Both the position numbers and the translations under genes were made by a program. Positions 12,653-42,447 of a DNA stretch of 64,000 nt are shown here, piece after piece (position 1 is the stretch's first letter; each line of letters opens with the position of its first letter). Source of the stretch: Curtobacterium sp. MCSS17_007 (GTDB lineage: Bacteria > Actinomycetota > Actinomycetes > Actinomycetales > Microbacteriaceae); assembly GCF_003234175.2 (NCBI RefSeq), contig NZ_CP126257.1, positions 2,480,001-2,544,000 of the forward strand, in the 5' to 3' direction. The notes under the pieces are model-generated. The model was given only the letters and a program-made list of their open reading frames with translations. It searched no databases and had not been told where the DNA came from.

Positions 12653-12664
12653 GTGAGCGCTCAC
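12653..12664. promoter_or_regulatory. LacI-type operator O1 of araB
   Basis: A perfect 12-bp palindrome, GTGAGCGCTCAC, lies directly downstream of the -10 hexamer of the araB promoter, where a bound repressor would block transcription. The same 12-mer occurs at four other sites in the window, all at arabinose-linked loci. Confidence 0.85.
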
Positions 12665-12694
12665 ATACTGGCACGTGAGCGCTCACGCGTGCAA
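12665..12694 (-). promoter_or_regulatory. araBDA promoter
   Basis: On the minus strand a -35 TTGCAC (12694-12689) and a -10 CAGTAT (12670-12665) are 18 bp apart. One operator (12675-12686) fills the spacer and the other (12653-12664) follows the -10. The CAGTAT-plus-operator junction is identical to that of the ChvE-type transporter promoter at 17795-17812. Confidence 0.7.
12675..12686. promoter_or_regulatory. LacI-type operator O2 of araB
   Basis: This is a second perfect GTGAGCGCTCAC palindrome, centred 22 bp from O1 and sitting between the -35 and -10 elements. Two sites about two helical turns apart would allow two repressor dimers to bind on the same face of the DNA. Confidence 0.85.
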
Positions 12695-12731
12695 CGCGAC
12701 GGCGCGCCGCGGGCACCGGGCACCCGCCGAG

Positions 12732-12814
12732 GCTCCGCCGAGCGGGCAGCGGGCTCCCGCCGACGCTCCGCCGAGCGGGCAACGGGCTCCCGCCGACGCT
12801 CCGCCGAGCGGGCA
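12732..12814. repeat. 33-bp tandem repeat, 2.5 copies
   Basis: Units start at 12732, 12765 and 12798 (the last is partial, 17 bp). The first two differ at one position (cagc versus caac). Each contains the word ccgagcggg, which is also present in the 59-bp repeats just downstream. Confidence 0.85.
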
Positions 12815-12983
12815 CGATCTGTCACGCTCGGCACCCGTCGCCGACACATCTCGCCCGCTCGGTGACACGCAGGCGGCAGGTCTCGCCCGGTCGGCGGCCG
12901 ACGTGCCATCCTCGCCGAACGCCACCGAGCGGGCACGATCTGTCACGCTCGACACCCGTCGCCGACACATCTCACCCGCTCGA
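12804..12983. repeat. Pair of 59-bp direct repeats
   Basis: Copy 1 spans 12804-12862 and copy 2 spans 12925-12983; they differ at only a few positions. Each copy is itself flanked by short inverted words (cgagcggg at the left, cccgctcg at the right), so each could fold into a long imperfect hairpin. No coding function is seen. Confidence 0.8.
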
Positions 12984-13130
12984 CGGCACGCGCGCGGCAC
13001 GTCCTGCCCGCTCGGTGCCGAGGTCTCCACGGCGCTCCGGTCCGCCGGCTCGCTGGGCCCGCGCGCAGCCGAGCCCGCTCGACATCGGCGCGCGTCCCGG
13101 TGCCGCGACGCGCCGTCGGCGATCGTCCTC

Positions 13131-13179
13131 GTCGCACGACATGCCGTCACGCACGGAACTGAGCGGCATGTCGTGCGAC
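13131..13179. repeat. Family C intergenic inverted repeat, copy 1
   Basis: The arms are 13131-13146 (gtcgcacgacatgccg) and its exact reverse complement at 13164-13179, with a 17-bp loop. The same arm is found in another intergenic region at 16493-16543, so this is a dispersed family and not a chance hairpin. Confidence 0.8.
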
Positions 13180-13264
13180 CAGGACGCTTCGCGCAGCACC
13201 CGCGCAGCACCCGCGCAGCACCCGCGCGGCAGCCGGGCAGCGACCGCGCGCGCCGGCCGGCGGG

Positions 13265-40535: not shown

Positions 40536-40538
40536 CCG

Positions 40539-40637
40539 CCGGACGGGAGGTACGGCGCAGGACCGCGTCGCGCCTCCCGTCGGGCACGTCCCGGGTCGCC
40601 AGGCCCGTGGCGGGGCCGCACCGCGCCTCCCGTCCGG
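40539..40637. repeat. Family A inverted repeat with two right arms
   Basis: One left arm (ccggacgggagg, 40539-40550) can pair either with cctcccgtc at 40573-40581 or, perfectly over 12 bp, with cctcccgtccgg at 40626-40637. It follows the acetyltransferase stop and separates it from the convergent GH51 gene. Confidence 0.65.
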
Positions 40638-40760
40638 AACGTCGCACCACGAGCGGAGGGCACCGGTCCGCTCGCGCGGGCCGGTGCCCTCCGTGCTCAC
40701 TCGACGCTCACCGGAGCGCTCGCCGAGGCGTTCGTGCGCCGACCGTGGTCGGCGGTCGGG

Positions 40761-42263
40761 TCAGCCGATCGACACCGCGGTCCAGGAGACCGGCGGCAGT
40801 TCGATCGTGATCGTGTCGCCCTCGCGGCGGACGGTCTCGTTCGTGCGGAGGCCGACGCGCTCGCGGTCCGCGAGGTCGTTGACGGCGTGCACGTCGTCGT
40901 CCCAGAGGCCCTCGGCGTGGACGTCGCCCTCGACCGACAGGCCGGCGAGGTCGATCGTGACCGTGGTCGACTCGGTCTGGTGGCGGTTGACGAGGAACAC
41001 CGCCGCCTTGCCGTCCTCGACCGTGGCGGCCGAGTCGACGACCGGCACCTCGCCGTACTTGCCGCCGTCGACGGTGTCGCCCGAGGCCTTCACCTGCAGC
41101 GAGGTCCCGTTCGCGAGCCGCGACGTGACGGAGAACGGGAAGAACGTCGTCTGGCGCCAGGCCGGGCCGCCCGGTTCGGTCATGATCGGGCCGATGACGT
41201 TGACGAGCTGCGCGAGGCTCGCCGACGCCACACGGTCGGCGTGCCGGAGCAGCGAGATGAGGAGCCCGCCGACGACGACCGCATCGGCGACCGTGTAGAC
41301 GTCCTCGAGCAGACGGGGTGCGACCGGCCACTCGTCGAGCGTGAAGGTCTTGGCCTGCGCCTCCCAGCGCTTGATCGACCAGACGTTCCACTCGTCGAAC
41401 GAGATGTCGATGCGCTTGTCCGACTTCTTGTGCGCCTTGACGTGGTCGGCAGCGGTCGTGACCGTGTCGATGAAGTGGTCCATGTTGACGCCCGAGGCCA
41501 GGAACGACGGCATGTCGTCGTCCTCCTCGTAGTACGCGTGCGCCGAGATGTAGTCGACGTCGTCGTAGGTGTGCTCGAGGACGGTGCGCTCCCACTCGCC
41601 GAACGTCGGCATCGAGGCACCGGACGAGCCGCACGCGACGAGCTCGAGGTCGGGCTGGATCTGGCGCATGGCCTTCGCCGTCATCGCGGCGAGCTTGCCG
41701 TAGTCCTCGGCGTTCTTGTGACCGAGCTGCCACGGCCCGTCCATCTCGTTGCCGAGGCACCACATCTTGACGGCGAAGGGCTCCTGGCGGCCGTTCGAGC
41801 GGCGGTACTCGCTCAGCGCGGTACCGGCGTCGATGTTCGCGTACTCGAGGAGCTCGATCGCCTCCTGCGTGCCGCGGGTGCCGAGGTTGACGGCGAGCAT
41901 GAGCTCCGAGCCGACGCGGTCGAGCCAGTGCTGGAACTCGTGCAGGCCGACCTCGTTCGTCTCGGTCGAGTGCCAGGCGAGGTCGAGGCGGCGGGGACGC
42001 TGCTCGACGGGGCCGACCCCGTCCTCCCACTTGTAGCCGGACACGAAGTTGCCGCCGGGGTAGCGGATCGCGGAGACGTTCAGCTCCTTGACGAGGTCGA
42101 TGACGTCCCTGCGGAAGCCGTGCTCGTCGGCGGTCTCGTGCGCGGGCTCGTGGATGCCGTCGTAGACGTGGCGTCCGAGGTGCTCGACGAACCCGCCGAA
42201 CAGGCGACGGCGCACCGGCCCCACGGTGAACGCGGCGTCGAGGACGAGGTGTGTGCGGGGCAT
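40761..42263 (-). CDS. abfA: Alpha-L-arabinofuranosidase, GH51 family
   Basis: The 500-residue enzyme removes alpha-linked L-arabinofuranosyl groups from arabinan or arabinoxylan oligosaccharides. It has the GH51 motifs IRYPGGNFVSGYKWEDGVGP, the acid/base Glu173 in WCLGNEMDGPW and the nucleophile Glu291 in SFDEWNVW. There is no signal peptide, so it is cytoplasmic. The ATG is preceded by AAGGAG. It is divergent from a CUT1 importer, and the gap holds two arabinose-type operators. Confidence 0.96.
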   Translation of the reverse strand: MPRTHLVLDAAFTVGPVRRRLFGGFVEHLGRHVYDGIHEPAHETADEHGFRRDVIDLVKELNVSAIRYPGGNFVSGYKWEDGVGPVEQRPRRLDLAWHSTETNEVGLHEFQHWLDRVGSELMLAVNLGTRGTQEAIELLEYANIDAGTALSEYRRSNGRQEPFAVKMWCLGNEMDGPWQLGHKNAEDYGKLAAMTAKAMRQIQPDLELVACGSSGASMPTFGEWERTVLEHTYDDVDYISAHAYYEEDDDMPSFLASGVNMDHFIDTVTTAADHVKAHKKSDKRIDISFDEWNVWSIKRWEAQAKTFTLDEWPVAPRLLEDVYTVADAVVVGGLLISLLRHADRVASASLAQLVNVIGPIMTEPGGPAWRQTTFFPFSVTSRLANGTSLQVKASGDTVDGGKYGEVPVVDSAATVEDGKAAVFLVNRHQTESTTVTIDLAGLSVEGDVHAEGLWDDDVHAVNDLADRERVGLRTNETVRREGDTITIELPPVSWTAVSIG

Positions 42264-42319
42264 GGATCTCCTTCGATCTGCTGGGGCAAGTGCGCCGACG
42301 TGATCGGCCCGGTACGAAA

Positions 42320-42331
42320 GTGAGCGCTCAC
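42320..42331. promoter_or_regulatory. LacI-type operator of the GH51 gene
   Basis: This is a perfect GTGAGCGCTCAC palindrome. On the minus strand a TTGCAG (42339-42334) lies just upstream of it, so the operator would fall between -35 and -10 of the GH51 promoter. Confidence 0.85.
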
Positions 42332-42435
42332 GTCTGCAAGAACGCTAGCGGGTTTCGCCCCCGTGGGGAAGCCGGTCCGCGTCCTCGTCGTGACGTTCAC
42401 GAAAGGGGTGGCGGACCCTCGGGTGGATCGCTAAT

Positions 42436-42447
42436 GTGAGCGCTCAC
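42436..42447. promoter_or_regulatory. LacI-type operator of the GH51-linked importer
   Basis: This is a perfect GTGAGCGCTCAC palindrome directly downstream of GCTAAT (42430-42435), a -10-like hexamer, so the geometry repeats that of the araB and ChvE-type operons. It lies 46 bp before the lipoprotein start. Confidence 0.87.

Follow-up and report, generated by a model that had tools for sequence, protein, structure and literature searches.

Results

Arabinose genes and operators

The DNA analysed here, a 64,000-nucleotide stretch of the Curtobacterium sp. MCSS17_007 genome (hereafter the window), holds three loci with arabinose genes, which are listed with their operators and promoter elements in Table 1: an araB-araD-araA-oxidase group, genes for a ChvE-GguA-GguB importer that diverge from a LacI-family gene, and a divergent GH51/CUT1 pair 24 kb from the other two. 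While araD and araA scored above the cut-offs of their models, none of the NCBIfam kinase models was exceeded by araB. Among solved structures, the oxidase-like protein is closest to 8ot8 (404 bits), followed by xylitol oxidase 2vfr (380 bits); its gene comes after araA in 18 of the 19 named loci with sufficient sequence, all but L119. The protein encoded at 16661-17710 has both parts expected of the LacI/GalR family, an N-terminal LacI helix-turn-helix (HTH) and a periplasmic-binding-protein-like domain, and lac repressor chains are among its best solved matches.

Table 1. Genes, operators and promoter elements of the three arabinose loci
Feature	Position	Strand	Basis or remark
Alditol/xylitol-oxidase-like FAD protein	7403-8668	-	PF01565, PF04030; start 4 bp past araA stop
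araA, L-arabinose isomerase	8673-10172	-	NF002795, 732.7 bits (cut-off 622)
araD, L-ribulose-5-phosphate 4-epimerase	10193-10885	-	NF005123, 357.7 bits (cut-off 251)
araB, FGGY kinase	10900-12624	-	PF02782, PF00370; ribulokinase by place before araD and araA
araB operator 1, GTGAGCGCTCAC	12653-12664	none	directly downstream of -10
Probable araB -10, CAGTAT	12665-12670	-	between the two operators, which bracket it
araB operator 2	12675-12686	none	within 18-bp -35/-10 spacer; 22 bp from operator 1
Probable araB -35, TTGCAC	12689-12694	-	TTGCG-like in relatives
Neighbouring LacI-family protein	13265-14269		PF00356; gene upstream of araB
LacI-family protein, proposed arabinose repressor	16661-17710	-	PF00356, 60.0 bits; PF13377, 130.4 bits
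Probable chvE promoter, TTGACA-N17-CAGTAT	17772-17800	+	conserved in relatives
chvE-side operator	17801-17812	none	directly after -10; between importer gene and divergent LacI gene
ChvE sugar-binding protein	17892-19028	+	NF040907, 520.5 bits (cut-off 460)
GguA importer ATPase	19105-20727	+	NF040905, 859.5 bits (cut-off 810); ORF limits, true start probably further in
GguB importer permease	20714-21895	+	NF040906, 549.1 bits (cut-off 450)
GH51 alpha-L-arabinofuranosidase (ArfA)	40761-42263	-	NF051901, 690.8 bits (cut-off 625)
GH51 operator	42320-42331	none	10 bp past probable -10 TAGCGT (42342-42347, minus strand)
CUT1 importer operator	42436-42447	none	directly after probable -10 GCTAAT (42430-42435)
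CUT1 binding protein	42493-43863	+	PF01547; ATG 42493 start inferred, mechanical ORF begins inside operator
Two CUT1 permease-like genes	43918-45802 (43918-44883, 44885-45802)	+	ORFs and place only

The five perfect copies of the 12-bp palindrome GTGAGCGCTCAC described in the initial annotation, which we take to be the core of the symmetric lac operator, were all confirmed at 12653, 12675, 17801, 42320 and 42436, as was their location in promoter gaps that precede arabinose genes. A second-order Markov model predicts 0.013 copies per 64 kb. The genome-wide scan proposed in the same annotation (3,309,445 bp, one contig) returned these five exact copies only, all inside the window and 5 of 5 at arabinose genes, with no multitude of copies at unrelated genes; the reversed word, itself palindromic, has no exact copy in the whole genome. 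The full 14-mer TGTGAGCGCTCACA occurs once among the five sites, at 17800-17813, the 12-bp core being perfect at all of them. Imperfect copies with up to two mismatches are not enriched in the window (8 against 8.7 expected), and genome-wide they number 210, compared with 160 for the reversed word. Copies with exactly one mismatch number 8 in the genome, against 12 places matching the reversed word with at most one, and inspection by eye of 1.5 kb on either side of those eight revealed nothing resembling araBDA, GH51 or importer genes. The whole-genome scan also found no exact copy at central-carbon genes. The signal is confined to perfect copies.

The -35 and -10 hexamers were assigned by eye and then compared with those of relatives. 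An operator had been said to follow the -10 directly at three sites, and this is right for 12653, 17801 and 42436; in the chvE promoter the hexamers are TTGACA at 17772-17777 and CAGTAT at 17795-17800. The AraQ literature, in the portion drawn on here, takes a site downstream of or overlapping the -10 as the mark of repression (PMC5928203), and by that measure all five operators occupy repression positions. Every operator in the window is placed where, as judged from the promoter sequences, RNA polymerase should be blocked. The 22-bp spacing of the araB operators approximates two helical turns, at which two repressor dimers would stand side by side, and the GH51 and CUT1 operators are 116 bp, or about 11 turns, apart.

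Conservation across the genus

All 66 Curtobacterium genomes carry GTGAGCGCTCAC, with 2-7 copies each and 373 in total, against 11 copies (counted by eye) of the reversed word in the same genomes. The double operator before araB was aligned in 38 sequences, comprising the window and 37 of the 42 named Curtobacterium loci; L085, L087, L091 and L123, on short or cut contigs, and L119, with a single site, were left out. Both operators are perfect in 33 of the 37 loci, and L104, L110, L117 and L118 have one mismatch in one operator. Over the 38 promoters, identity is 99-100% in the operators and 92% in the intervening 10 bp, compared with 51% in the upstream and 59% in the downstream flank. The chvE-side operator is present in 41 of the 42 named loci, missing only in L119, and the GH51/CUT1 pair in 62 of the 66 genomes (absent from G002, G024, G042 and G043). 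Spacing within this latter pair varies over 30 relatives' loci, being 81 bp in 19, 116 in five, 126 in four, and 117 and 82 in one each; in G049 it is 115 bp.

Relatives also show the 12-mer in other settings. Of 17 loci centred on a site, 11 have an extra binding-protein gene beside the 12-mer, as do 2 of 10 regions from another set; this sugar binding-protein gene is near the 12-mer in L025, L026, L027, L029, L036, L037, L040, L041, L043, L049, L050, L166 and L167; in L025 a glycosyltransferase-2 gene stands on the other side of the site. Its position makes this gene a possible extra member of the regulon in those relatives. Searched against the window's genome it gave no match at 1e-50, an empty answer that by itself shows little. 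In three Curtobacterium genomes (L162, L163, L164), a perfect 12-mer lies between a different LacI gene (helix QKTVSRV) and a binding-protein-like gene.

Assignment of the probable repressor

The genome contains 16 LacI HTH matches. The recognition helix of the 16661-17710 protein, GVSHQTVSRVIN (VSHQTVSRVIN), differs from that of E. coli LacI, GVSYQTVSRVVN (VSYQTVSRVVN), by Tyr to His and Val to Ile, and TGTGAGCGCTCACA lies upstream of its gene. Orthologues scoring at least 350 bits were found in 64 of the 66 genus genomes, with a contig-edge fragment in G049; two fragmented drafts, G022 and G065, have weaker matches only, yet hold 3 and 4 sites, which counts against this protein.

The neighbouring LacI-family protein, 13265-14269, whose gene adjoins araB in the window, could bind all five operators instead. 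Its helix (VSIGTASKALN) is unlike that of LacI, however, and its own promoter gap has a different palindrome, GGAAAGCGCTTTCC, with a single-copy 12-bp core. Moreover, at 1e-90 its orthologue was undetected in 10 of the 66 genus genomes, nine of which are assemblies of good quality, and 3-6 copies of the operator persist in each of the ten; where araB is in view and the neighbouring gene is not (L084, L105, L107, L114, L115, L118, L119 and L121), an operator precedes araB in 8 of 8 named loci. These natural losses of the gene while the sites persist therefore favour the 16661-17710 protein, and we consider control by its neighbour very improbable. Another proposal is that the sites are shared with, or taken over by, a LacI paralogue whose helix is the same, above all the one at genome position 368298, in the manner of AraQ and MalR1 in B. 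breve, for which operator sharing by two LacI proteins is reported in the portion of the source drawn on here (PMC6882875). Two other LacI-type sequences of the genome, at 368298 and in a fragment at 179704, do have the HQTVSRV helix, which counts against a sole regulator, since cross-binding becomes possible. The 368298 paralogue (helix HQTVSRVLN) has an imperfect palindrome, TGTGAACGTGCACA, upstream, but this differs at the centre, and its orthologue has no site next to it in any of the 12 genomes for which all sites are listed (G001, G003-G013); such sharing or takeover seems improbable.

A dispersed repeat or chance cluster of no regulatory meaning might also yield copies that are perfect and identical while imperfect ones are not enriched. 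Yet there are only five exact copies in 3.31 Mb, all in promoters of one pathway, and the distances between operators and hexamers are near-constant across the genus while the flanks diverge, so that we give this explanation practically no credence. The initial annotation had chosen the 16661-17710 protein as the common regulator, and its LacI-like helix, the retention of the chvE-side operator and the survival of sites in genomes where no 13265-14269 orthologue was detected all speak for that choice. We conclude that this LacI protein is most likely the regulator of the five operators.

The 179704 sequence (L007, L266), which lies outside the window, is a LacI-like fragment with the helix HQTVSRVLN in an ORF of only 73 amino acids, probably a remnant or an HTH-only protein.

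The operator beyond the genus

Across the order, 30 of 297 genomes, among them that of the window, contain TGTGAGCGCTCACA. Within 1.5 kb on each side of these 30 loci, a LacI gene matching 16661-17710 is present in 13, again including our own; three others match the query set only through a GH51-, GguA- or GguB-like gene, and in the remaining 14 none of the 14 query proteins gave a match. In three genomes of family f8, TGTGAGCGCTCACA lies between a LacI gene (LQTVSRV) and araD-araA. A protein of AraQ type would be expected to share some 35-40% identity with bifidobacterial AraQ and to have an HTH that is nearly the same. The best LacI matches in eight genomes of family f4, which we infer to be Bifidobacteriaceae, are 35-37% identical and carry HQTVSRV, these being f4 proteins rather than named AraQ sequences. 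In a 53-row tree, the f4 proteins join those of Curtobacterium and three other Microbacteriaceae with support of 85/79, below the starred level. The perfect 12-mer lies upstream of one of the eight f4 LacI genes, a one-mismatch copy upstream of two, and a copy only downstream of one; the best upstream match (450 bp) of four of the eight has 4 mismatches, which counts against the reading of 16661-17710 as repressor.

Other features of the window

The GH127 gene (product with PF07944) is separated from the 13265-14269 LacI gene by the palindrome GGAAAGCGCTTTCC at 14358-14371. A separate repressor for GH127 had been suggested; the single-copy core of GGAAAGCGCTTTCC hints at one, while the palindrome recurs in only 3 of 30 named relatives' loci scanned, and the suggestion is accordingly kept as a weak one. 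Three repeats were noted in the gap between araB and the 13265-14269 gene (12709-13249): one of 33 bp in tandem (3.2 copies), one of 11 bp at 13190-13249, and a direct repeat of 25 bp at 12806 and 12927. A third LacI-family gene of the window (32651-33868, plus strand; helix MQTVSRVARG) has its own palindrome, TGTTGACGTCAACA, upstream at 32751-32764. The word CGGACGGGAGGC recurs at 3967, 19122, 38635, 40625, 45850, 51444/51476, 55893/55925 and 63256; the copies at 51444/51476 and those at 55893/55925 form inverted pairs, and the word resembles a common terminator or a hairpin of the REP type.

Discussion

Combining a genome-wide operator search with promoter anatomy and comparison across the genus, our work leads us to propose, with considerable confidence, that the arabinose genes of the window form a local regulon of the AraQ/AraR kind for L-arabinose, in which dimers of the 16661-17710 LacI protein would bind the five GTGAGCGCTCAC operators and block RNA polymerase at three loci until a sugar releases them. 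At the araBDA-oxidase operon the dimers would occupy the two operators around the -10; the same repressor would act at the ChvE-GguA-GguB importer, perhaps also on its own gene, and at the divergent genes for the GH51 arabinofuranosidase and the CUT1 importer. L-arabinose or a close product would most likely free the repressor, such that the cell would begin to free arabinose from polymers, import it and catabolise it at the same time. Two motifs, NDQMALG and GFDD/GYDD, as well as an arginine close to LacI residue 197, all of which presumably serve in sugar binding, align between this protein and E. coli LacI, consistent with a free sugar, probably L-arabinose, as the effector. We considered a DNA loop joining the GH51 and CUT1 operators and rejected it, because their variable spacing keeps no helical phase and the protein lacks a tetramerisation tail. 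The idea of a code that would relate hinge residue 50 to the centre of the operator was also set aside.

More speculatively, perfect operators of the symmetric lac type may be the units from which the genus builds its regulon, relatives adding a gene through one perfect site (as with the sugar binding protein of L025, or the binding protein beside the QKTVSRV LacI), while two dimers on one face of the DNA seal araB around its -10. We hold this picture as a tentative and rather doubtful one; if true, it would describe a naturally tight, all-or-none pentose switch whose regulon grows in modules, in contrast to the broader AraQ network found in bifidobacteria. The proposed regulon gives Curtobacterium, a common plant-associated genus, a compact and testable case of arabinose control, and the double perfect araB operator might be put to use for tight switching of expression in high-GC actinobacteria. 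No Curtobacterium arabinose regulon of this kind is reported among the best literature matches listed.

The E. coli lac repressor with its symmetric operator (PMC3922697, in the part drawn on) served as one comparison system. Unlike E. coli LacI, the 16661-17710 protein has no C-terminal tetramerisation tail, their alignment stopping at residue 326 of the 360 in LacI and at residue 347 of the 349 in the query, and the pathway and probable effector also differ. What the two systems share is an identical operator core and a nearly identical recognition helix. Another comparison system is AraR of Corynebacterium glutamicum ATCC 31831, which we take to be of the LacI type. As far as the portion of the report drawn on goes, AraR is a dedicated repressor of araBDA and the arabinose transporter AraE, whose deletion leads to constitutive expression (PMC5956887). 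A dedicated arabinose repressor over araBDA and a transporter is likewise what we propose here, with the difference that the transporter in C. glutamicum is AraE.

Judged from its sequence, the Curtobacterium regulon is of the published AraQ kind, already described in related bacteria. In the portions of the sources drawn on here, AraQ, with the consensus TGTGAGCGCTCACA, was predicted in Bifidobacterium (PMC4746261), was extended to araBDA-araFGH-araQ clusters of Arthrobacter, Geodermatophilus and Stackebrandtia (PMC5928203), and was shown to bind in B. breve, where its effector was not found (PMC6882875). Those same portions record no distant AraQ sites in the non-bifidobacterial genomes of the 2016 study (PMC4746261), GH51 genes in the AraQ regulons of three bifidobacterial genomes in the 2018 study (PMC5928203), and global control of central carbon genes for bifidobacteria only, with none reported for non-bifidobacterial lineages (PMC4746261, PMC5928203). 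Set against these accounts, Curtobacterium shares the linkage of a LacI-family gene to araBDA and to an importer of the ABC type for sugars (the importer as in AraQ regulons outside bifidobacteria), the consensus itself, and sites at or after the -10 of ara genes. In contrast to bifidobacterial AraQ, it has no exact sites at central-carbon genes, and it departs from the AraQ regulons described there in its distal GH51/CUT1 operator pair, in an araB preceded by two perfect operators, and in an oxidase gene after araA. The additions to these AraQ reports are modest: the distal pair, an araB -10 enclosed by two operators, and the oxidase gene that begins 4 bp past araA. The first of them would carry AraQ-type control, outside bifidobacteria, over to hydrolase and importer genes at a distance.
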